Virus record (IMG/VR): IMGVR_UViG_3300036717_000098
Span: 1-30,182 of that record
DNA: 30,182 nucleotides
Direction: 5' to 3' (one strand)
From: a virus
Within the stretch, counting starts at the first letter, position 1; every line of letters starts with the position of its first letter. The translations under genes were made by a program, and so were the position numbers. Positions 12,567 to 27,172 of the stretch are shown here, in pieces. The notes beneath the pieces are model-generated. The model did not search any database. It worked only from the letters and a program-made list of their open reading frames with translations, and was not told the DNA's origin.

Positions 12567-13844
12567 ATGGCCAAGCTTTCAGACCTAAATCCTAATCCAA
12601 AAAATCCCCGATCCATCACTGAGCCGAAGTTAAAGGCCCTTCAGGCGGCGCTGGTTGAGTTCGGCGACCTTGGTGGGTTTGTATACAACCGAAAGACGAA
12701 ACAACTCGTGGGCGGGCACCAGCGGCTTAAGCTTTTTGACGCGAACGCGCCCATAGTCCTTGAGAAAAAATACAATAAGCCAACCAAAACCGGAACGGTC
12801 GCTGAAGGCTTTATTGAACTTAAAGGCGAGCGTTTCAAGTACCGCGAAGTCTTATGGGATTCCATACGTGAAAAGGCCGCAAACATCGCGGCCAACAAAG
12901 GTGCAGGCGATTGGGATAATAAACTCTTGACCGAATGGTTCAAAGAAATCGACGCGCTCGATTTCAATCTGGATTTGACAATGTTCGACGAAAAGGAACG
13001 TGAGAAATATTTAGGCAAAGAGTCAAAACCGGGGCTGACCGATGACGACGAAATACCTGACGAGGTTAAGCCGCGCGCACAGCTTGGGCAAATATGGCAA
13101 CTTGGCAATCACCGGCTCATGTGTGGGGACAGTACTTCGTTAAGCGATGTTGAACGGCTAATGAAGGGCGAGAAGGCTGAAATGTTGTTTACTGACCCAC
13201 CTTATGGTGACAACCATGCGGCGATGGATTTTGACCCAACTCAGGCGAAGCTTGGTAAATCAGTTGTAACCAAAAAGCACAAAATCGCCTCTGATGAGAA
13301 TTTAGACTTTTTGGGTCCGGCATTGAATAGCGCGTCTACTGCTTTGGCTGATAGCGCCACTAAGATTGTTTTTTTCAAATGGAAAAAATGGATTGAAGTG
13401 CGTGAGGCATCTGAGGTTTTTGGTGAGCCGTCCGCATGTATTGTTTGGGATCGCGATGACATTGCTGCCGCAATTATGCGTTTTAATCCATGCCATGAGT
13501 TTGCTTTCCACTGGGGATCACAGACAGACAAGCACTCAAAATCTAATTTGAGAAACGTTTGGCGTTGTCAGAAGGAATATGAGAACAAGGCTCTGCATCC
13601 AACTGTAAAGCCGATTGAAATATTAGCGCCAGCTATTGAGGTTTGCACTGATGCCGGGGATTTAATCCTCGACCTCTTCGGAGGCTCAGGCTCAACCCTC
13701 ATCGCCTGCGAGAAAACAAACCGCAAGTGCTTTATGATGGAACTAGACCCACACTACTGCGATGTCATTGTCACGCGGTGGGAACAGTTTACGGGCCAAA
13801 AGGCAAAGTTGTTAAACAACAAATTGGCAACTAATGGCAAATAA
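12567..13844 (+). CDS. ParB-domain DNA methyltransferase fusion
   Basis: Residues 1-110 form a ParB/Sulfiredoxin-like nuclease domain with the motif LVGGHQRLKL (47-56). The C-terminal part is an amino-methyltransferase in which DPPYG (210-214) precedes HPTVKP (344-349) and the SAM-binding DLFGGSGS (369-376), the beta-class order. It would methylate adenine N6 or cytosine N4; the target sequence cannot be read from the protein. ParB-methyltransferase fusions are common in phages and are usually without a partner restriction enzyme, as here. They may protect phage DNA from host restriction or mark packaging sites. Its stop lies 11 nt inside the next gene. Confidence 0.9.
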   Translation: MAKLSDLNPNPKNPRSITEPKLKALQAALVEFGDLGGFVYNRKTKQLVGGHQRLKLFDANAPIVLEKKYNKPTKTGTVAEGFIELKGERFKYREVLWDSIREKAANIAANKGAGDWDNKLLTEWFKEIDALDFNLDLTMFDEKEREKYLGKESKPGLTDDDEIPDEVKPRAQLGQIWQLGNHRLMCGDSTSLSDVERLMKGEKAEMLFTDPPYGDNHAAMDFDPTQAKLGKSVVTKKHKIASDENLDFLGPALNSASTALADSATKIVFFKWKKWIEVREASEVFGEPSACIVWDRDDIAAAIMRFNPCHEFAFHWGSQTDKHSKSNLRNVWRCQKEYENKALHPTVKPIEILAPAIEVCTDAGDLILDLFGGSGSTLIACEKTNRKCFMMELDPHYCDVIVTRWEQFTGQKAKLLNNKLATNGK

Positions 13845-14214
13845 GAATATTAAACCACGTTGGAAAAAAGGCCAAAGCGGCAATCCGAAAGGCCGACCAC
13901 CCGATAAACTGGGAAAGGTTATGCGCCAACTTACCGCTGAAGAGTTTGCCGAGATTGCGAACATGATCATCAAAGGCTCGATCAAAGATTTACGCGCGAT
14001 TGCTCAAGACGATTCGCTCCCAGCACTAAAGGTCATGATTGCGGCCACGGCTGTGAAAATCATTTCACGCGGCGATATGAATGCACTCGACACACTCCTC
14101 AATCGATTGGTGGGTAAAGTGAAAGACCATATGCAGGTTTCGGGTATCGCTGAGGGACCGCAAATCATTTTAACGATGGCTTCAAACGGCAAAGAAAAAC
14201 CAAAAGGGGAATAG
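13834..14214 (+). CDS. DUF5681-type protein, probable small terminase
   Basis: The N-terminal WKKGQSGNPKGRPPDKL is the DUF5681 signature found on phage proteins next to large terminases. The rest is helical (residues 30-90) with a short C-terminal tail. By position it is the probable DNA-recognition (small) terminase subunit. The gene overlaps the methyltransferase by 11 nt and is followed directly by the glycosyltransferase ATG. Confidence 0.7.
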   Translation: MANKNIKPRWKKGQSGNPKGRPPDKLGKVMRQLTAEEFAEIANMIIKGSIKDLRAIAQDDSLPALKVMIAATAVKIISRGDMNALDTLLNRLVGKVKDHMQVSGIAEGPQIILTMASNGKEKPKGE

Positions 14215-15231
14215 ATGTCGATCATTCAAAAATCAACGCACGAGCCGCTTAACCCTATCTTAGGCACAGTCACTATTCCGGCAATGGAATCACCGACGTT
14301 TCGTTATCTCTTGGCGCAACAAAATAAAACCACAAAAAATGTTTTGCTCGTAGCCCCTTACGCTTTGGGCGACTGCATTTGTGCCGAGCCTGCGATTCGG
14401 TATGCAGTAAACAATTTCGCTGGATGTAAGGTTTCGCTACTAACGGCGTTCCCCGAACTCTTTCAGCATTTGGAGTTAGAAAAGGTTTATAACTCACGTG
14501 AAGGAAATCCTAATTGGGACGACTACTATGTTCTAAAAGGTTACTACGCGGCTGATGAACTCCAATCCGAATTCACCCACAACTTCAATATGCAAATTGG
14601 TGACTACATCGCGACTTGTCTTTTCAAAGGTCAGATTCCGGTAAAAGATCGCAACATCGTTTTAAAGCCCTCAGTCAATTCGTTATCGGCCCAACAAGTT
14701 GTGGTTCATCCGGGAAAACATTGGGTTTCAAAAACTTACCCTAAGCGTTGGTGGGATGCGATTCTTACAGGGCTTATCGGTCAAGGGGTTACGCCTGTTA
14801 TTATTGGCGCAACCGTTGAAGACGGCAAACGTGGAACGGTTGATGTCGATGCCACTAATTGTTTAGACCTTCGAAATAAACTCTCAGTTATGGAATCAGT
14901 TTCTCTAGTGCAGACTGCGCAAGTGGTTCTCACAAACGATTCAGCACCTCTTCATATGGCGGCGTCAGGGGGTGCGTGGATTGGTTATTTCTCAACCGTC
15001 AGGCACGAAGACTTCACCAAGCATTGGCGTGCCGATGAGTGGGGCATAAATCAATTTGGTCATAGGATGCATAACTTCGCTAAAGGAACTATGTGGCAAA
15101 CGACCGATGTAAGTCCTGCACGTAATGGCGCGAAGTATGATGTCATCGACGAGAAGACTTTAATGTCGTGGCTGCCTGAACCTGTTGATGTCGTCAAATG
15201 GACTTGCGGGTTATTATCTGGGCGCGCCTAA
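14215..15231 (+). CDS. Family 9 glycosyltransferase (heptosyltransferase-like)
   Basis: The 338-residue protein has two Rossmann-type halves. The N-terminal half carries APYALGDCICAEPAIR (47-62, with the conserved GD). The C-terminal half carries VVVHPGKHW (162-170), the PVIIGA strand (195-200) and TNDSAPLHMAASGG (240-253), the nucleotide-sugar site of GT-B family 9 enzymes such as ADP-heptose:LPS heptosyltransferases. It could add a sugar to LPS, to a virion protein or to modified DNA; the substrate is not shown. It lies between small and large terminase genes with no gaps (one base after TerS, overlapping TerL by 44 nt), so it is expressed with the packaging genes. Base composition is like the neighbours. 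Confidence 0.85.
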   Translation: MSIIQKSTHEPLNPILGTVTIPAMESPTFRYLLAQQNKTTKNVLLVAPYALGDCICAEPAIRYAVNNFAGCKVSLLTAFPELFQHLELEKVYNSREGNPNWDDYYVLKGYYAADELQSEFTHNFNMQIGDYIATCLFKGQIPVKDRNIVLKPSVNSLSAQQVVVHPGKHWVSKTYPKRWWDAILTGLIGQGVTPVIIGATVEDGKRGTVDVDATNCLDLRNKLSVMESVSLVQTAQVVLTNDSAPLHMAASGGAWIGYFSTVRHEDFTKHWRADEWGINQFGHRMHNFAKGTMWQTTDVSPARNGAKYDVIDEKTLMSWLPEPVDVVKWTCGLLSGRA

Positions 15232-16603
15232 CCTTGAAAACGTAGTTCGTTTAGGCCCTCAAGAGGGGCCGCAGTCTGCATTCATCGGATGCGAAGCTGA
15301 TATTGCTATCTACGGGGGAGCTGCGGGCGGCGGCAAATCCTTCGGACTTCTACTTGATCCACTTAGACATTGGGATAATGCAGATTTTGGTGGAGTCGTA
15401 TTTCGTAAGACCTCAGTACAGGTGCGTAACGAGGGCGGTCTTTGGGATGAGTCGATGAAACTCTACTCCCTTTTTAAAGCGCGTCCACGTGAGGCGGTCT
15501 TAAGTTGGCAGTTTCCACGCGGCATGAGTATGAGCTTTTCAAACCTCGAGTATGAAAAAGACGTGCTCAACTACCAAGGAGCACAGATACCTTGGATCGG
15601 GTTTGATGAGCTGACGCACTTTTCTGAGAACCAATTCTTTTACATGCTTTCACGTAACCGTTCTACATCAGGGGTGAAGCCTTGTATCAGGGCCACTTGC
15701 AATCCAGATCCAGATTCTTGGGTTAGGAAGTTTATCTCTTGGTGGATTGGGGAAGACGGGCTTCCGATCAAATCTCGTTCGGGTGTGCTTCGCTACTTCA
15801 TTAGAATCAATGATGCGATCGTGTGGGCTGATTCTAAGGAAGAGATTTATAAAGCGTACGGAAGCGGCCCCGAGATACAGCCTAAGTCGGTTACGTTCAT
15901 TGGCGCTAAACTCGAAGACAATAAGATTTTAATGGAGAAAGACCCAGCATACGCAGGCAACTTGTTAGCACTAAACCGTGTTGATCGTGCCCGGCTTAAA
16001 GACGGCAACTGGAATGTCCGGGCTATTGCCGGAATGATGTTTCAACGTGAGTGGTTCACTGTCGTTGATGCAGTGCCTGCGGGTTGGGTACAAGCGATTC
16101 GGTTTTGGGACCGGGCGGCAACTCGTCCAAGCGAGAAGAATAAAGACCCCGATTGGACAAGGGGACTCAAACTTTACAAATATCCGGATGGCCGCTTTTG
16201 TGTCGTCGATATCAAGTCTTTACGTGATACGCCGGGCCAAGTGGAAAAGCTCATCAAAGCAACAGCTTCGCATGATTCCGTTTCAGTAAAGGTAATGTCG
16301 CAACAAGATCCAGGCAGTGCTGGTGTTGCGGAAGCTGAGAACTTTATCAAGATGCTCGCAGGCTACTACGTTCAGGTAATGACGACGTCGAGAGATAAAG
16401 TAACGAGGGCTAAACCTGTTTCGGCGCAGTGCGAAGCAGGCAACATCATGGTGCACAGGGCTTCGTGGAACGATGAGTTTTTCGATGAACTCGAAAATTT
16501 TAGTGATAACGACAAAGAATATGCTCACGATGACATTGTTGACGTTTTATCGGGTGCGTTTAATGAGCTAAGCGGGGGCATGTCGCTAGCTGACGTTTTG
16601 TAA
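15188..16603 (+). CDS. Terminase large subunit
   Basis: The ATPase domain has Walker A YGGAAGGGKS (42-51) and Walker B with catalytic acid in WIGFDELTHF (136-145). The RNase H-like nuclease domain has RFWDRAAT (D308), the QQDPGSAG region (D374) and HDDIVDV (447-453). The protein is the motor and nuclease that cuts concatemers and pumps DNA through the portal. The ATG at 15188 was chosen (MSSNGLAGYYLGAPNLEN); a TTG one codon before is in frame. There is no clear ribosome binding site, so it probably depends on coupling to the glycosyltransferase gene it overlaps. Confidence 0.95.
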   Translation: MSSNGLAGYYLGAPNLENVVRLGPQEGPQSAFIGCEADIAIYGGAAGGGKSFGLLLDPLRHWDNADFGGVVFRKTSVQVRNEGGLWDESMKLYSLFKARPREAVLSWQFPRGMSMSFSNLEYEKDVLNYQGAQIPWIGFDELTHFSENQFFYMLSRNRSTSGVKPCIRATCNPDPDSWVRKFISWWIGEDGLPIKSRSGVLRYFIRINDAIVWADSKEEIYKAYGSGPEIQPKSVTFIGAKLEDNKILMEKDPAYAGNLLALNRVDRARLKDGNWNVRAIAGMMFQREWFTVVDAVPAGWVQAIRFWDRAATRPSEKNKDPDWTRGLKLYKYPDGRFCVVDIKSLRDTPGQVEKLIKATASHDSVSVKVMSQQDPGSAGVAEAENFIKMLAGYYVQVMTTSRDKVTRAKPVSAQCEAGNIMVHRASWNDEFFDELENFSDNDKEYAHDDIVDVLSGAFNELSGGMSLADVL

Positions 16604-16804: not shown

Positions 16805-18533
16805 AAAGCCTGGAAGTACAGCGGCAGACGCAGAAATCAAAAACGAGCTGATCGTCATTCCAACTCTCACCAATGGTTTTTCTGAAGCCATCGGCTTTAA
16901 CGGCCCGGGCATCGGAGGCGGCATAAACCCATTTGGTTTCACAGGTAACCAAACCGTATCGGAAACCGATACGGCCTTTGAGAACTTACGTTGGTACTTG
17001 GTTTCGAACTTTCGCCAACTCCTCTCGCAGCTCTTCGTTGAGATTGGTTTAGTTAGAACCATATGCTGCGTACCTGTTGATGACGGTCTTCGCGGCGGCG
17101 TGATGTTTAAATCTAAACAGCTCGACGAACAGCAGATCAAAGAACTGCAAATCAATATGGACCGCGACAATGATCTAAACACTGCGGGCTGGGCGGCCAA
17201 GTGGACAAGAGCATATGGTGGGGGAGGCATTCTTATTTTGGTCGATGATCAAGATCCAGAAATGCCTTTAGACCTCGCCTCGATTGGCCCAGATACCAAG
17301 GTCACATTCCGCGCAGTCGATATGTGGGAGCTGTTTTGGGACAAACAAAACGTTGAAGGCTACGATGCTGAAATTCAGCGCGAGGACTTTGAGTTCTACA
17401 ATTACTATTCAAAAGAAATTCACAAGTCTCGAGTCATGGCCCTTAAAGGCGACGAAGCTCCGAGCTTCATTCGTCCACGGCTTCGTGGCTGGGGCGTTAG
17501 TTGTGTTGAGGTTTTGATCCGTTCGATGAACCAGTACTTAAAAGCTACAGATCTAGGCTTTCAGGTGCTCGACGAATTTAAGCTCGACGTTTATAAAATC
17601 AAAAACTTAGTAAATACGTTGATGTCACCAAACGGCACGAACGCAATCAAAGAGCGCGTTCAAATGGCCAATTGGCAAAAGAATTATCAAAACGCTGTCG
17701 TTATGGACTCAGAAGACGATTTCGATCATAAACAGCTTTCGTTTTCAGGACTCGCCGAAGCAATGGCGGGTATCAGGACGCAAGTTGCGGCAGACATGCG
17801 AATGCCAATTCTAAAGCTTTTCGGGCAAAGCGTTTCAACAGGCATGGGCACCAGTTCAGTTGAAGAGATGGAAAACTACAACTCTATGGTGGAGTCTGAA
17901 GTCCGTAACAAACTCAAGTACCACATTTTAAAAATGGGCGAGATAAAGTGCCAACAGCTCTTTGGTATGATTCCAGACGATCTAGAGTTAGAGTTCAAAC
18001 CGCTTCGTGAGTTATCAGCGATTGATCAAGAGACTGTGAAGACGCAAAAGTTCACACGTCTTAAGGACGCTAAAGCTGCGGGCGAAATCACAACGCTTGA
18101 ATTCAGAGACGCTTGTAACAAAGGAAATCTCTTTGACGTTCAACTCGACACTGCGGAAGACGGCTTGAGCGACGATCCACAACTTGATGAAGTTTTATCA
18201 GGGGAAGCGGCTGATAAGAGTTCAGGTAACGGCGATGACGCTCCAGAAAACGACGAGCAAGGGGCGAACGCTCCTGATTCCGAAAAAGTAAAAAACTACA
18301 CGCCACTCGAAAAGGTCTTACGCGTTTTCAATAGTGCAGCGTTTGATCAAGCGTCTTACGAAGCTGATGGCGGCGATAGTCAAATGCTCGAAGGCCGAAA
18401 AGAATTCTTCATTGAGTCAAATGCTAAAGACGTAGGGCTTTATCAAAAATGCGCGAGTGAAGCGAAAGAACTCGGCAAAGACTGGAAGTTCACAGTTTGG
18501 CTTTATAAGAAACAAGGGGGAAAGTTTAAATGA
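16788..18533 (+). CDS. Portal protein (DUF1073-like)
   Basis: The 581-residue protein reads as a DUF1073-type phage portal. Features are LVRTICCVPVDDGLRGGVMF (about residues 87-106), a Gly-rich ARAYGGGGILILVDDQDPE-like segment near 141-158, and a wing/stem part with MRMPILKLFGQSVSTGMGTS (about 345-364). It forms the dodecameric ring at the capsid vertex through which DNA passes. The last 120 residues are an acidic linker followed by a small extra domain (LYQKCASEAKELGKDWKFTV). ATG follows the small coiled-coil gene with overlap. The order terminase-portal is standard. Confidence 0.88.
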   Translation: MSKKYKKPGSTAADAEIKNELIVIPTLTNGFSEAIGFNGPGIGGGINPFGFTGNQTVSETDTAFENLRWYLVSNFRQLLSQLFVEIGLVRTICCVPVDDGLRGGVMFKSKQLDEQQIKELQINMDRDNDLNTAGWAAKWTRAYGGGGILILVDDQDPEMPLDLASIGPDTKVTFRAVDMWELFWDKQNVEGYDAEIQREDFEFYNYYSKEIHKSRVMALKGDEAPSFIRPRLRGWGVSCVEVLIRSMNQYLKATDLGFQVLDEFKLDVYKIKNLVNTLMSPNGTNAIKERVQMANWQKNYQNAVVMDSEDDFDHKQLSFSGLAEAMAGIRTQVAADMRMPILKLFGQSVSTGMGTSSVEEMENYNSMVESEVRNKLKYHILKMGEIKCQQLFGMIPDDLELEFKPLRELSAIDQETVKTQKFTRLKDAKAAGEITTLEFRDACNKGNLFDVQLDTAEDGLSDDPQLDEVLSGEAADKSSGNGDDAPENDEQGANAPDSEKVKNYTPLEKVLRVFNSAAFDQASYEADGGDSQMLEGRKEFFIESNAKDVGLYQKCASEAKELGKDWKFTVWLYKKQGGKFK

Positions 18534-18952
18534 ATCAACAGGTATTTTGGTCACCAGGAGTAACTCTGGAAATGATCGAAAAGCAGGTCATCTTAAATGC
18601 TTTTCGATTTTATCGCGGAAACAAAACTCAATGCTCAATCTCTTTGGGCATTTCAATTAGAACTTTAGAAAACAAATTGGAGAAGTATGAAGCAGACGGA
18701 ATCGCCCAACGAGACGCAGAAATCAAAGACGAAGCCGAGCGAGCGGAAATCCTTGACCGACACAGAGGCATCATCCCTTCGTCAAAATCCCAAGAAGGCG
18801 GCGCGCGTATTTACGGCGCCAATGCCGGGGTTCACGTACAATCCGCTCCTGAAGTACCCGCGCAACAATCTATGCCCATGCCACAGTCAGAAAAAGTTCA
18901 AAGTGTGTTGCCTAAGCAAGCTCCCGGCGGTCGTCACGATCGAAGACGCTAA
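18530..18952 (+). CDS. Fis-type HTH protein
   Basis: Residues about 14-54 (TLEMIEKQVILNAFRFYRGN, then CSISLGISIRTLENKLEKYE) match the Fis/NtrC C-terminal DNA-binding helix-turn-helix. The remaining ~85 residues are Pro/Gln/Ser-rich with a basic end (PGGRHDRRR). AAGGGGGAAAG precedes the ATG, which overlaps the portal TGA. From 18687 on, 266 nt are shared with the SEC-C gene in another frame. It may control late transcription or bind DNA for packaging; neither is shown. Confidence 0.75.
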   Translation: MNQQVFWSPGVTLEMIEKQVILNAFRFYRGNKTQCSISLGISIRTLENKLEKYEADGIAQRDAEIKDEAERAEILDRHRGIIPSSKSQEGGARIYGANAGVHVQSAPEVPAQQSMPMPQSEKVQSVLPKQAPGGRHDRRR

Positions 18953-19088
18953 GAACTTTGTAAACCAAATGAGACGCCCAAATTTGGCGTTCGTCACCAA
19001 AGAGAACGAGTTAGAGCTTCGAGCGGCCGCTGAGATGCGTAACTACTTCGAAGAACAAGATAGGCTAAAGGCCGAGAAAGAAAAGTAG
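18687..19088 (+). CDS. SEC-C zinc-motif protein
   Basis: The motif YPRNNLCPCHSQKKFKVCC (57-75) is a SEC-C-type zinc-binding site (C63, C65, C74, C75), as at the SecA C-terminus and on many phage proteins behind portals. The N-terminal 45 residues are disordered and basic; the C-terminal 50 are a charged helix. The ATG at 18687 has GGAG 5 nt upstream, but a later ATG at 18822 (MPGFTYNP) would also work and would shorten the overlap with the Fis-type gene. Function is unknown. Confidence 0.75.
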   Translation: MKQTESPNETQKSKTKPSERKSLTDTEASSLRQNPKKAARVFTAPMPGFTYNPLLKYPRNNLCPCHSQKKFKVCCLSKLPAVVTIEDAKNFVNQMRRPNLAFVTKENELELRAAAEMRNYFEEQDRLKAEKEK

Positions 19089-19091
19089 TGT

Positions 19092-22000
19092 ATGGCGATA
19101 GCATCGACATGTGTTTGGGAAGCTAGAGGGGACGCCACAGCTGGGATGCTTAATGGTGGGGGTTTCGTATCTGGCGGAGGCGGCACCGATTACTCTCAAC
19201 AAACTACTGCGCAGTACACTTTTACGGATCTTTCTTCGTCTACAGGTACTAGTACAACACCTGCGGTTCTTTCGGTGTCGCATTCATTTGTTGCGGCCGA
19301 TGTTGGAAACATCATCCACATTACGGCGGGCACAAGTTGGACCGCAGGTTGGTATCAAATCGTTTCGGTCGCGACAGGTGCAGCGACTCTTGATCGTGCT
19401 TGTGGTTCGGTTGCGACTTTAACATCAGGTACTTACTATGTTGGCGGAGCACTTTCATTCGGCTCAACTCAAGATAGCAATTTCTGTGCAACGACGGGGG
19501 TAGTCGGCGGCAATATCGTTTGGGTAAGAAACACGACAACGCCACTCACTCTCGGTATTGCCGTTAGCACTCGTGTCGCTACAACGGCGTTACCAATTAA
19601 GTTTATCGGTTATAACGCAACTCGTGGGGATAACCCATCAACTGTTGCGACGATGCCTGCGTGGAATCAGGGCGCATTCGGTTGGACTCTTGGTCAAAAC
19701 ACTAACTTTTCTTACATCAATTTTACCGGCACGCCTTCGAACATATTCACATGTAACGCCGCAAATAACATTTTCAATACCTGTAAGATCGTAAACACCA
19801 ATGTGAACACGGGAGTTACTGGTATCTCTTCCACTGCGGGAGGCATTGTAGCCCTTAACTGCGAAATTTCCGCTCTTCACGGTATTGGCTTTGCAATGGG
19901 CGGAACCATTCCCGGATGTCAGGTCAACGGATGCTACATCCACAACTGTCAGACCGGGATTTCTATCGTCACGACAGGCGCAGGTAATGTGGTGGCGAAC
20001 AGTATCATTGAAGGGTGCACAACGGCTGCGATTGCTCTTGGGTCCGGCGCACTTCTCAATACCATAATGAACAATACTTTTTATGGCGCGGAAGTCCCCA
20101 ATGGTGCAGGTATCGCGACAACCAATGGCAACGAGTACAACTTTCTTTTTAATAACATTTTTTACGGTCTTACGACTGCTCTTACTGAGAACACAACCGC
20201 ATCAACCATGGTAGCGAACTACAACAATTACTTTAACAACACGACAAATTACACAGGCATATCCGCAGGGGCGAATGACAAGGCCTTACAACCTGGATTT
20301 GTCGGCGTAACCAATTTGACGGGCACTACGGCAACGACTCTCACGGGAAATATCATCAGTGATTCATCTCAAAACTTCTCGAACGTCGTAAACAACCAGG
20401 ACACCATTTTAATTAAATCAGGCACCGGGGTTGTGACCGGTTATTATTTGATCACGTCACATACGACTACGACCGTGACGGTAACACCGGCGATCACTGC
20501 GAATGCGACAGCGGATAAAGCTTACGAGCTTACGCTTGGTCATAACTTTAACGTTGCGATTGCGATGCAGGGCTTAGCGTTCCCTCAAACTCTACCAGGC
20601 GGCTTCACTACTTCTTATGGGGACCTTGGCGGATCACAAAGAAATCCGACAGCAGATTACACTGACCCAGGTGTTGCGAACGTTCAAATCGGAACAACTT
20701 ATCTTTACGCAACGGTTTTAGAAACGGGCACCTACACTGGTGCGAATCGTTGGTCTGACCCGGGAGTCGCAAATGTCATTAGCCCTACCACCTACAATGC
20801 AAACGCTGTTGGAAAAACCGGAACCTATGTCGGCCCCACAACCTCAACTGTTGAGGTCGGCACTACGTATGGAGCTTCGAGCGGTCTTACTGGCACGTAC
20901 AATGGATCTAATTTGTGGTCAGATCCGGGAGTTGCGAACGTCCTTAGCACAGTTTCATATCAAGTAAATTCGGCCACTGCGAATGAAACAGGCACTTATG
21001 TTTCGCCTGCGACATCGATTGTTGAAACCGGAAGTACATATGGGCCGTCGAGCGGTTTGACAGGTATCTATACAGGCGCAAATCGTTGGTCTGACCCAGG
21101 CGCAATGAACGTGAGAAGTGGAACCGTTTATCAGGCGAACTCTCTCACCAATAATGAAATCGGGTCTTACTTACCTGTCGCTTTACCTCAAGTTCTTAAC
21201 TGCGGGCTGGGGCTTGATTCTTCGTACAATCTAAATGGTGCTTTTTGGGCCACGAGCAACTCTGCGATCATTACGTCAGGACTCGGAACGGCGTCTTACG
21301 CAATTCTAAAACCTGATGGTACGAGTGCAGGGGTTAGCCAAAGTAGTATCTCAGCCGCTGGTAGCGGGCTGTTCTTCATTACGCCGGTCAGTGTGACTTC
21401 GCTTATTGGGACTTCGAATTATTTGATTGAGATTACGATCGTGGTTAACTCAGTCAGCTACACTCAATACTTTGAGTTTCCAATTCAAACGGCGGTTCCG
21501 ACGAACCCATTATTAACGACTGATACTCGTCTCAACGATTTGGATGCGGCGATTTCATCAAGGCTTGCAACGTCTGGTTATACAGCGCCTGCAAATTCGA
21601 GTATCGCAACGATTCTTACTGACGTGGCCGCTATTCCGACGAACCCATTGTTAACGACTGATACTCGTCTAAACAATCTCGATGCAGCGGTCTCCTCGAG
21701 GCTTGCGACTTCAGGCTACACAGCGCCTGCGAACGCTAGCATCGCAACGATTTTAACGGACGTTGCGGCGATTCCAACAACACCATTATTGGCGGCAAAC
21801 TATACTGCTCCAAACAATGCGAGCATCGCGGCAATTAAATTACAGACCGACCAACTGGGTTTTACTGGAGGCAACGTGAATGCGAACGCACAAGTCGTAA
21901 GCGATAAGACCGGGTATGATTTAGCGTCAGGCCAGTTCTTTGTGAAAAAGAATGTGGCTTTCGCTAACTTCGGTTTCCCGATGTACGACTCAACTCTTCA

Positions 22001-22208
22001 CCAACCAATCACAGGTCTTACTCCTACGGTTCAAATCTCAATTGATGGTGGAGCTTTCGCAAACAGTACGAACGCGGCCAGTGAAGTGGGAAGCGGGCTT
22101 TATAAGATAAGCTTCGTACAGGCTGAAATGAACGGCACGACCATCAACCTAAAATTTTCCGCAACAGGCGCCGATACAATATTCGCGGAGATTATTACAC
22201 AACCATGA
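19092..22208 (+). CDS. Large beta-helix protein with tail-fibre-like repeats
   Basis: This is the longest gene of the window (1038 aa). Residues ~190-390 are rich in short Asn/Gly/Ile turns (NCEISALHGIGFAMGG, VVANSIIEGCTTAAIALG), typical of right-handed parallel beta-helix repeats. Residues ~525-680 hold four DPGxxNV modules (at 20664, 20757, 20922 and 21093) alternating with TGTY motifs. Residues ~805-896 hold a 46-residue tandem repeat starting NPLLTTDTRLN. The C-terminal domain has Ig-like strands. It is probably a trimeric surface or fibre protein binding glycans or decorating the head; the position within the head genes is odd for a tail spike. No signal peptide or catalytic motif is recognised. 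Confidence 0.7.
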   Translation: MAIASTCVWEARGDATAGMLNGGGFVSGGGGTDYSQQTTAQYTFTDLSSSTGTSTTPAVLSVSHSFVAADVGNIIHITAGTSWTAGWYQIVSVATGAATLDRACGSVATLTSGTYYVGGALSFGSTQDSNFCATTGVVGGNIVWVRNTTTPLTLGIAVSTRVATTALPIKFIGYNATRGDNPSTVATMPAWNQGAFGWTLGQNTNFSYINFTGTPSNIFTCNAANNIFNTCKIVNTNVNTGVTGISSTAGGIVALNCEISALHGIGFAMGGTIPGCQVNGCYIHNCQTGISIVTTGAGNVVANSIIEGCTTAAIALGSGALLNTIMNNTFYGAEVPNGAGIATTNGNEYNFLFNNIFYGLTTALTENTTASTMVANYNNYFNNTTNYTGISAGANDKALQPGFVGVTNLTGTTATTLTGNIISDSSQNFSNVVNNQDTILIKSGTGVVTGYYLITSHTTTTVTVTPAITANATADKAYELTLGHNFNVAIAMQGLAFPQTLPGGFTTSYGDLGGSQRNPTADYTDPGVANVQIGTTYLYATVLETGTYTGANRWSDPGVANVISPTTYNANAVGKTGTYVGPTTSTVEVGTTYGASSGLTGTYNGSNLWSDPGVANVLSTVSYQVNSATANETGTYVSPATSIVETGSTYGPSSGLTGIYTGANRWSDPGAMNVRSGTVYQANSLTNNEIGSYLPVALPQVLNCGLGLDSSYNLNGAFWATSNSAIITSGLGTASYAILKPDGTSAGVSQSSISAAGSGLFFITPVSVTSLIGTSNYLIEITIVVNSVSYTQYFEFPIQTAVPTNPLLTTDTRLNDLDAAISSRLATSGYTAPANSSIATILTDVAAIPTNPLLTTDTRLNNLDAAVSSRLATSGYTAPANASIATILTDVAAIPTTPLLAANYTAPNNASIAAIKLQTDQLGFTGGNVNANAQVVSDKTGYDLASGQFFVKKNVAFANFGFPMYDSTLHQPITGLTPTVQISIDGGAFANSTNAASEVGSGLYKISFVQAEMNGTTINLKFSATGADTIFAEIITQP
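20664..21107 (+). repeat. Four DPGxANV modules in the beta-helix gene
   Basis: The codons for DPGVANV recur at 20664, 20757, 20922 and, as DPGAMNV, at 21093. Each is followed about 20-30 residues later by a TGTY or similar motif. A fifth copy, DPGIANV, lies in the next gene (22259). Confidence 0.7.
21504..21779 (+). repeat. 138-nt tandem repeat (46 aa)
   Basis: Two copies (21504-21641 and 21642-21779) encode NPLLTTDTRLN[D/N]LDAA and the following residues to VAAIPT, with only a few amino-acid changes but many silent base changes. A partial third unit (TPLLAANYTAPNNASIA) follows. This looks like an old duplication in a fibre-type shaft. Confidence 0.85.
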
Positions 22209-26098: not shown

Positions 26099-27172
26099 AT
26101 GAAAAAAGTAAAACAGCCAGTAATCCTAAACAGCGACGGCAAACCAATCTTGCTCAACGAACAAGAGAAGTTCCACGCTGCGTGGACTCAAAAGATCGTA
26201 AACGAGCGCTTCGGAAACTCACTCGGTTACGAAGTACCAATCACCACTTTGACTGCAATTTCTAAGAAAGTTTCGATGATGAAACTTTACGAAATCGCAC
26301 CAGCTGACTACGTACCAATACGCGTAGGTCAAGGAACATGGTCGTCTAACCTGACAACTTACCGTTCTTACGACATCGCTGACGTTTTCGAATCAGGCAT
26401 TATCAACACTGGTGGAAACAATACTCGCGCGAGTGTTGGTGACGCAGGTGTCGATGCGCTGAACATCAAAATCAACAACTGGAATAAAATGTGTGCTTGG
26501 TCGATTTTCGATCTTAAGCAGGCAGCTCAGTCTGGAAACTGGGACCTAGTTACTGCGAAAGAAAAAACTCGCAAAAGAAACTGGGACCTTGGTATTCAGC
26601 GCGTAGCATTCCTTGGTGCTCGTGGACAAAACGCAGCCGGTGGCGCTTGTCTTGGTCTTTTGAACCAAGCTGGTGTTACTTTCAACACCTCGTTGATCAC
26701 CGCTCCGCTGAACGGCCTTACGCCAACTCAGCTTTCGACTTTCCAACAATTGTCGATCGCTGCTTATCGTAAGAATTGTAACTACACTGCATTCCCAACT
26801 CATATGATTGTTCCCGAGTCTGACTACAACGGGTTAGTAGCTCAAGCGAGCCCAACTTATCCAATGAAGTCGATTTTGCAACTTCTTGAAGAGGGTTTCC
26901 AAGTTGTTACCCGCAACAAGAATTTCAAAATCTTGCCGCTCGCTTATGCTGACGTTGCAAACGCAGGTGGAGTTTTGGCTTCAGGTGCGAACACTGCTCA
27001 GTACGCATTCTTGAACTACGACGAAGAGTCGATCCGTATGGATATTCCGCTCGATTACACCAACACGTTGGCGAACTCGATCGATAATTTCATGTTCCAA
27101 AATGCAGGCTACGGCCAGTTCACAGGAGTACTTGCGTACCGCCCTGCTGAATTATTCTACATGGGCTACTAA
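26099..27172 (+). CDS. Major capsid protein (DUF2184-like)
   Basis: The 357-residue protein fits the DUF2184 major-capsid group of the HK97 fold: an N-arm with KKVSMMKLYEIAPADYVPIR, the E-loop-like part with TWSSNLTTYRSYDIADVFES, a conserved LGARGQNAAGGACLGLLNQA segment, and the C-terminal P-domain strand set ending VLAYRPAELFYMGY. GGAAGGATATTT precedes the ATG. It is followed by a strong terminator, consistent with high expression. The decoration protein gene is upstream and the neck genes downstream. Confidence 0.88.
   Translation: MKKVKQPVILNSDGKPILLNEQEKFHAAWTQKIVNERFGNSLGYEVPITTLTAISKKVSMMKLYEIAPADYVPIRVGQGTWSSNLTTYRSYDIADVFESGIINTGGNNTRASVGDAGVDALNIKINNWNKMCAWSIFDLKQAAQSGNWDLVTAKEKTRKRNWDLGIQRVAFLGARGQNAAGGACLGLLNQAGVTFNTSLITAPLNGLTPTQLSTFQQLSIAAYRKNCNYTAFPTHMIVPESDYNGLVAQASPTYPMKSILQLLEEGFQVVTRNKNFKILPLAYADVANAGGVLASGANTAQYAFLNYDEESIRMDIPLDYTNTLANSIDNFMFQNAGYGQFTGVLAYRPAELFYMGY

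Follow-up and report, generated by a model that had tools for sequence, protein, structure and literature searches.

The window, as the DNA analysed here is called, comprises 30,182 bases and is a virus record of IMG/VR. A contig of 46,280 bases (G001) represents a nearly identical phage of about 46 kb and is apparently near complete. The window contains an intact gene for a glycosyltransferase of family 9 (GT9) between the genes for the small (TerS) and large (TerL) terminase subunits (Table 1), as had been claimed in a reading made from the sequence alone (the sequence-only reading). The GT9 gene was recovered base for base in two other assemblies, G001 and a third contig, and is therefore not an assembly artefact. 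That reading had placed its start one base after the TerS stop. The two genes are indeed immediately adjacent, the ATG being the very next base after the stop (14214), with zero bases between. The Shine-Dalgarno-like site of the GT9 gene, AAAAGGGG, is good (dG -7.8). Upstream, the 5' end of TerS overlaps by 11 nt a gene (12567-13844) for a DNA N6/N4 methyltransferase whose N-terminal part is ParB-like. Downstream, the GT9 gene overlaps TerL by 44 nt, counted from the ATG of TerL at 15188; the only other usable in-frame start is a TTG at 15185. No Shine-Dalgarno-like site was present for TerL in the window (dG -2.9), in line with the earlier remark that this gene lacks a clear ribosome binding site.

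Table 1. Features of the window that are discussed in the text
Feature	Position	Strand	Support
Small terminase TerS (DUF5681 type), 126 aa	13834..14214	+	PF18932, E 1.2e-11; related phages have homologs ahead of TerL/GT9
Shine-Dalgarno-like AAAAGGGG preceding GT9, within the end of TerS	14202..14209	+	
GT9-fold glycosyltransferase, 338 aa, ATG start	14215..15231	+	PF01075; AlphaFold2 model; PDB structure matches
Gly52-Asp53, candidate catalytic base Asp, counterpart of the GD motif	14368..14373	+	Invariant in 32 phage GT9s
Lys173 of the 'SKTFPKxWW' motif (donor-site type)	14731..14733	+	K in 28/32, R in 3/32
N241-D-S-A-P-L-H247, nucleotide/sugar-binding loop, GT9 'NDSGxMH'	14935..14955	+	N, D, S, P, H invariant in 32
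Large terminase TerL	15188..16603	+	PF03237/PF17289 (Terminase_6N/6C); phrog_979, E 7e-160
Ser/Thr-rich (24%) fibre-like protein, 1038 aa, candidate sugar acceptor	19092..22208	+	Inferred role
Major capsid protein	26099..27172	+	PF09950

Some further features of the window were observed. A Fis-type helix-turn-helix gene (18530-18952), with homologs in most phages of the group, directly follows the portal gene and is overlapped by a second ORF (18687-19088). At the left edge, a gene with long Ala/Ser-rich repeats (1-569) contains a run of GCG triplets; a gene with repeats of this kind (SAAESAARSAW type) is also found at L016:2235-2975.

The match of the GT9 protein to PF01075 scored 34.8 bits (gathering threshold 22 bits; E 1.4e-8) and spanned residues 157-252 only. 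An AlphaFold2 model built with 32 aligned relatives had a pLDDT of 89.3 and a pTM of 0.88; it replaced an earlier, poor model made with five sequences (pLDDT 60). The predicted structure shows over the full chain a two-lobed GT-B fold like that of solved GT9 enzymes. The best match among solved structures was 3tov, a GT9 protein from Veillonella (Z 20.9 over 272 residues), with TibC (Z 19.7, 286 residues aligned), WaaF (Z 19.4 over 262 residues) and WaaC (Z 18.4) close behind, Z differences of less than 1 being treated as ties. The alignment with TibC begins at model residue 14, those with WaaC and WaaF at residue 41. The protein thus has a full-length GT9 fold, as supported by the model and the PDB matches.

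Both the predicted catalytic Asp in the GD motif of the N-lobe and the NDSxxxH loop of the C-lobe are present in the 32 sequences. Gly52-Asp53 aligns with the GD of 3tov, in a weak local match, and the N241-H247 motif with NDSGLMH of WaaF (1psw). Residues G52-D53, H165, W170, D218, R220, N241-D242-S243, P245 and H247 are invariant in the 32 relatives, which bears out the earlier statement that the motifs of the enzyme are intact. A sugar nucleotidyltransferase (PF00483) is absent, so the donor sugar probably comes from the host.

The sequence-only reading had also stated that GT9 enzymes normally act on the LPS core. The window enzyme is itself remote in sequence from these enzymes, as it scored 17.9-22.6 bits with the NCBIfam models for LPS heptosyltransferases I, II and III, whose equivalog cut-offs range from 134.6 to 569 bits. 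No PHROG family matched the window enzyme at E 0.01 or its relatives L118, L140, L120 and L147 at E 0.001. Neither the window enzyme nor its G002 homolog had a relative among annotated phages. A distant member of the subfamily described below gave remote matches (25% identity) in Vibrio phages, adjoining a tail protein gene. No close cellular or prophage relative emerged when 84,980 bacterial and archaeal genomes were scanned twice with narrow peptide patterns, and the plasmids searched contained none.

GT9 genes whose products are 54-58% identical to the window enzyme were found between TerS and TerL in four other phages (G002, locus L013; G003, L016; G004, L017; G005, L018). In a fifth, L188, the GT9 gene directly precedes TerL and the contig begins inside it. 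In a TerL tree, the window phage and these five divergent phages formed a single clade (support 98/95), whose sister, L022, lacks a GT9 gene at this position and shows no convincing remnant of one in the gap between TerS and TerL. The terminase-position GT9s of five of the six phages also formed one clade (100/100). In other TerL relatives TerS adjoins TerL without GT9, and the 43-45 kb relatives G042 and G048 have no GT9 gene. As to the gene order of related phages, which the sequence-only reading had proposed as a check, the arrangement TerS-GT9-TerL is thus kept in one clade, through one insertion followed by retention as judged from the trees, and is not general in the phage group; the wider subfamily occupies other late positions.

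Within the clade, TerL has diverged by 18-33%. pN for the GT9 gene (0.22-0.31) is well below pS (0.70-0.87; dS is near or beyond saturation), which shows purifying selection on the protein. A Terminase_2 small terminase (PF03592) replaces the DUF5681 type in G004 and G005, so that the link between GT9 and TerL outlasted an exchange of TerS. The tails of these Terminase_2 proteins (L017:327-878 and L018:4524-4946; Q-V-I/V-L-T-M-P-x-N-G) resemble that of the window TerS; apparently, to judge from these sequences, the DNA-binding part was swapped and the C-terminal tail kept. The junction with TerL differs among the six phages. The genes overlap by 14 nt in G002 and L188 and abut in G003; the junction measures 1 nt in G004, and in G005 a gap of 434 nt holds a further ORF, of 165 aa, without a Pfam match. 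TerL of G002 has a Shine-Dalgarno-like site.

Scans with growing alignments yielded 44 and then 79 loci. On sequence grounds, the window gene belongs to a phage-specific GT9 subfamily with about 70 further loci. In most of them the gene directly upstream of GT9 encodes a protein of 440-600 aa. RCC1 beta-propeller repeats (PF25390/PF00415, E 1e-54 to 1e-87) were found in all five upstream proteins tested and in the partner of the L150 enzyme, and the RCC1 gene often overlaps or abuts the GT9 start. With a local RCC1 profile, such a gene was detected near GT9 in 56 of 73 loci, nearly always upstream, at 700 nt or less in 38 and further away in 18; some of these loci come from near-identical contigs, and the known terminase loci were left out. 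In all ten loci checked from the distant group, the GT9 match makes up the C-terminal portion of an ORF of 531-539 aa, so that the ORF itself begins near the RCC1 gene in most. The N-terminal part of a related fusion ORF, L149, is GT8-like according to Pfam. GT8-GT9-type fusion ORFs of about 533 aa adjoin RCC1 genes in L149 and L240-L260.

In several RCC1 loci the next downstream gene is methyltransferase-like, with a score below the Pfam cut-off. Genes of this type encoding about 195 aa directly follow RCC1-GT9 pairs at L122:6999-7586, L131:6965-7567 and L135:7023-7604; their Pfam matches are below cut-off or lacking, and one matches phrog_24975, of unknown function. In four loci a major capsid gene lies upstream of GT9, at 69 to 1506 nt, and in L120 and L132 a GT9 of the same subfamily comes directly behind it. 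Behind the capsid-linked GT9 of L120 (4931-7482) are genes for a Ser/Thr-rich (29%) protein of 574 aa with a signal-like N-terminus and for a laminin-G/lectin-like protein, both possible acceptors in the capsid-linked branch. In the GT9 tree, terminase and capsid-linked copies grouped together among RCC1-linked copies, a grouping that is not firm (89/87). Phage G002 has two GT9 genes, the first at the terminase position and the second overlapping an RCC1 gene at its end.

RCC1 repeats occur in 26 of 41 records with GT9, which differs from the 47 records without GT9 at a Fisher p of 4e-12, kinship not being corrected for. Among 48 records picked by TerL similarity only, a single one had GT9 over the cut-off, and it was the same one, with the two genes adjacent, that had RCC1 (Fisher p 0.02 on these records alone, again uncorrected for kinship). 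RCC1-matching genes were also observed in the unrelated phages S-SRM01 and Yong-DA, among genes for sulfotransferase, glycosyltransferase, epimerase, sugar transferase and methyltransferase. We found no report in the literature consulted pairing phage RCC1 proteins with glycosyltransferases and, as far as this literature shows, the pairing of GT9 with an RCC1 virion protein is undescribed.

The terminase position is restricted to one clade, and the wider subfamily lies mostly behind RCC1 genes and sometimes behind capsid genes. For this reason the packaging operon itself is probably no clue to function, and the packaging genes are probably a mere resting place of one branch of a broader, fibre-linked subfamily.

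The window phage (G001) has no RCC1 gene. We therefore considered as a candidate acceptor, on the basis of its sequence, the Ser/Thr-rich fibre-like protein encoded at 19092-22208. Homologs were found only in the terminase-GT9 phages G001, G002 and G004 among twelve records compared, and a dedicated scan of viral contigs with narrow patterns disclosed no other phage with a homolog. The gene does not adjoin GT9, and the corresponding site of G003, a phage with GT9, lacks it; the G005 record ends short of the site. The product had no Pfam or PDB match. Repeats seen by eye had hinted at a parallel beta-helix, which neither Pfam nor PDB supported and which was not used as evidence. The gene contains a tandem repeat of 138 bp (21492-21790), and its product carries an extra 46-aa unit compared with the otherwise nearly identical protein of G001 (1038 against 992 aa).

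The sequence-only reading had proposed a late function for the enzyme, with a virion protein, modified DNA or LPS as the target. The location in a late, packaging operon agrees with this, and sugar addition to the virion is the target that we favour, with moderate confidence. The GT-B enzyme, encoded among virion genes and presumably expressed late, would take as donor a nucleotide sugar of the host, possibly ADP-heptose but possibly a different one, and transfer the sugar in the cytoplasm onto a surface protein of the virion. The sugar would go in most relatives to the RCC1 beta-propeller protein, whose gene lies immediately upstream; further modification may sometimes come from a GT8-type domain fused to the enzyme or from a methyltransferase-like neighbour. 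The window phage would use a different surface protein as acceptor, the product of 19092-22208 being the most plausible. The GT9 gene, inserted once between TerS and TerL in an ancestor of the clade, has been kept since, and the benefit may be altered adsorption, stability or shielding. Weighing against virion glycosylation are the lack in the window phage of the best-linked acceptor, the lack in the enzyme of two elements of TibC (the iron finger and the N-terminal barrel), and the fact that a receptor-altering enzyme would equally adjoin the gene of a receptor-binding protein.

This last point leads to a serious rival, to which we give a rather low probability: late in infection the enzyme would alter a glycan on the host surface, either the LPS core or the O-antigen, which would keep progeny from being trapped on debris and shut out competitors. 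It would travel with the receptor-binding protein since both have to fit the same receptor, and the RCC1-GT9 linkage suits such a pair; the oac gene of phage Sf6 reportedly illustrates that a gene for a receptor-altering enzyme can adjoin a tailspike gene. Characterised GT9 enzymes (Pfam and NCBIfam families) mostly act on LPS. From gene order, receptor modification would account for the linkage almost as well as virion glycosylation. It fits less well with the scores far under every LPS heptosyltransferase cut-off, and the lack of a close cellular relative in the narrow scans makes recent capture of an LPS gene improbable. Furthermore, the GT9 copies at TerS/TerL and at the major capsid gene are not beside the fibre, and the gene is part of a virion-assembly operon, not of an early or lysogeny region. 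Less probable still is that the gene is a moron with a host-directed metabolic or other role, the terminase junction being a tolerated insertion site of the late operon. The gene takes three different positions in a single phage family and is absent from G042 and G048, which would agree with this, but random insertion would not predict the strong, repeated linkage to RCC1, the fused GT8-like domains and the methyltransferase-like neighbours, or retention by one clade throughout its TerL divergence.

The two remaining explanations appear very improbable. The enzyme could be secondary to a translational relay that sets the level of TerL, as the 44-nt overlap and the poor initiation site of TerL would suggest. 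Dependence of TerL on GT9 translation, raised by the sequence-only reading, is possible in the window phage, but the junctions are not conserved in relatives (the initiation site in G002 and the gap in G005 being examples), and invariant active-site residues and purifying selection on the protein argue against a mere relay. Even more remote is glycosylation of a hypermodified base of the phage DNA before packaging, which would explain the location between TerS and TerL; phage DNA glycosyltransferases do exist. However, no gene of the thymidylate synthase/dCMP-hydroxymethylase type (PF00303) was found in nine related records, several of which are fragments, making modified DNA an unlikely target. 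The DNA glycosyltransferase of phage HY126 (9iqz) matched poorly (TM 0.22), the GT9s of relatives sit behind fibre and capsid genes rather than DNA genes, and the phage carries an N6/N4 methyltransferase instead.

More broadly, and more tentatively than for the window enzyme, the loci suggest by analogy with TibC a widespread phage system in which a dedicated GT9, alone, fused to GT8 or with a methyltransferase, glycosylates RCC1 virion proteins or, in derived lineages, other Ser/Thr-rich surface proteins. Virion glycosylation has been demonstrated in few phage systems so far and, as far as we found, the role of RCC1 beta-propellers in phage particles is not established; the recurring RCC1-GT9 (plus GT8 or methyltransferase) pair joins these two questions. 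These small two-gene cassettes are amenable to co-expression and mass spectrometry. If correct, this proposal would be a warning not to label such phage genes LPS heptosyltransferases as a matter of routine.

Known systems share parts of this arrangement. Two of the RCC1 fibres match phrog_4219 (E 1e-33 to 1e-39). According to the relevant sections of the respective reports, mass spectrometry of virions detected phrog_4219 RCC1 proteins for E. coli phage W70 (PMC11370258) and an RCC1-type protein for the Rak2-like phage GAP32 (PMC5259590). These proteins have the RCC1 beta-propeller repeats in common with the GT9 neighbours, whereas the same sections report neither an adjoining glycosyltransferase nor glycosylation. 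In mycobacteriophages Che8 and Rita, virion proteins (capsid and tail tube) are glycosylated and phage glycosyltransferases are thought to be responsible (Freeman et al. 2023, as cited in PMC11256854 and PMC12619734); these are other phage lineages, and the citing passages name neither a GT9 enzyme nor an RCC1 acceptor.

With the GT9 enzymes of LPS synthesis, WaaC, WaaF and WaaQ, the phage enzyme shares the fold, the GD motif and the NDS(G/A)xxH loop. Unlike them, it falls far below the NCBIfam cut-offs, has an extra conserved N-terminal segment (MExPxFR) and has relatives that were seen in virus contigs only, beside virion genes. TibC and Aah, the bacterial autotransporter heptosyltransferases (BAHT; PDB 4rap/4rb4), have the GT9-type GT-B fold in common with the phage enzyme over nearly the whole chain. 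The sequence match with TibC is insignificant (E 0.17). The four-cysteine iron finger in the C-lobe of BAHT is absent from the window protein, whose only C-lobe cysteines are C216 and C331 (the widely kept Cys columns of the phage GT9s being C56 and C216), and in place of the N-terminal beta-barrel of 97 residues the window enzyme has about 40 residues with a helix and no strands. Because both elements are absent, the phage enzymes are not BAHT members. TibC is a protein O-heptosyltransferase with a GT9 fold that acts on autotransporter passengers, which are repetitive protein acceptors (10.7554/eLife.03714). If virion glycosylation is correct, the phage enzymes would likewise use a protein acceptor and, by this analogy, may work like TibC.
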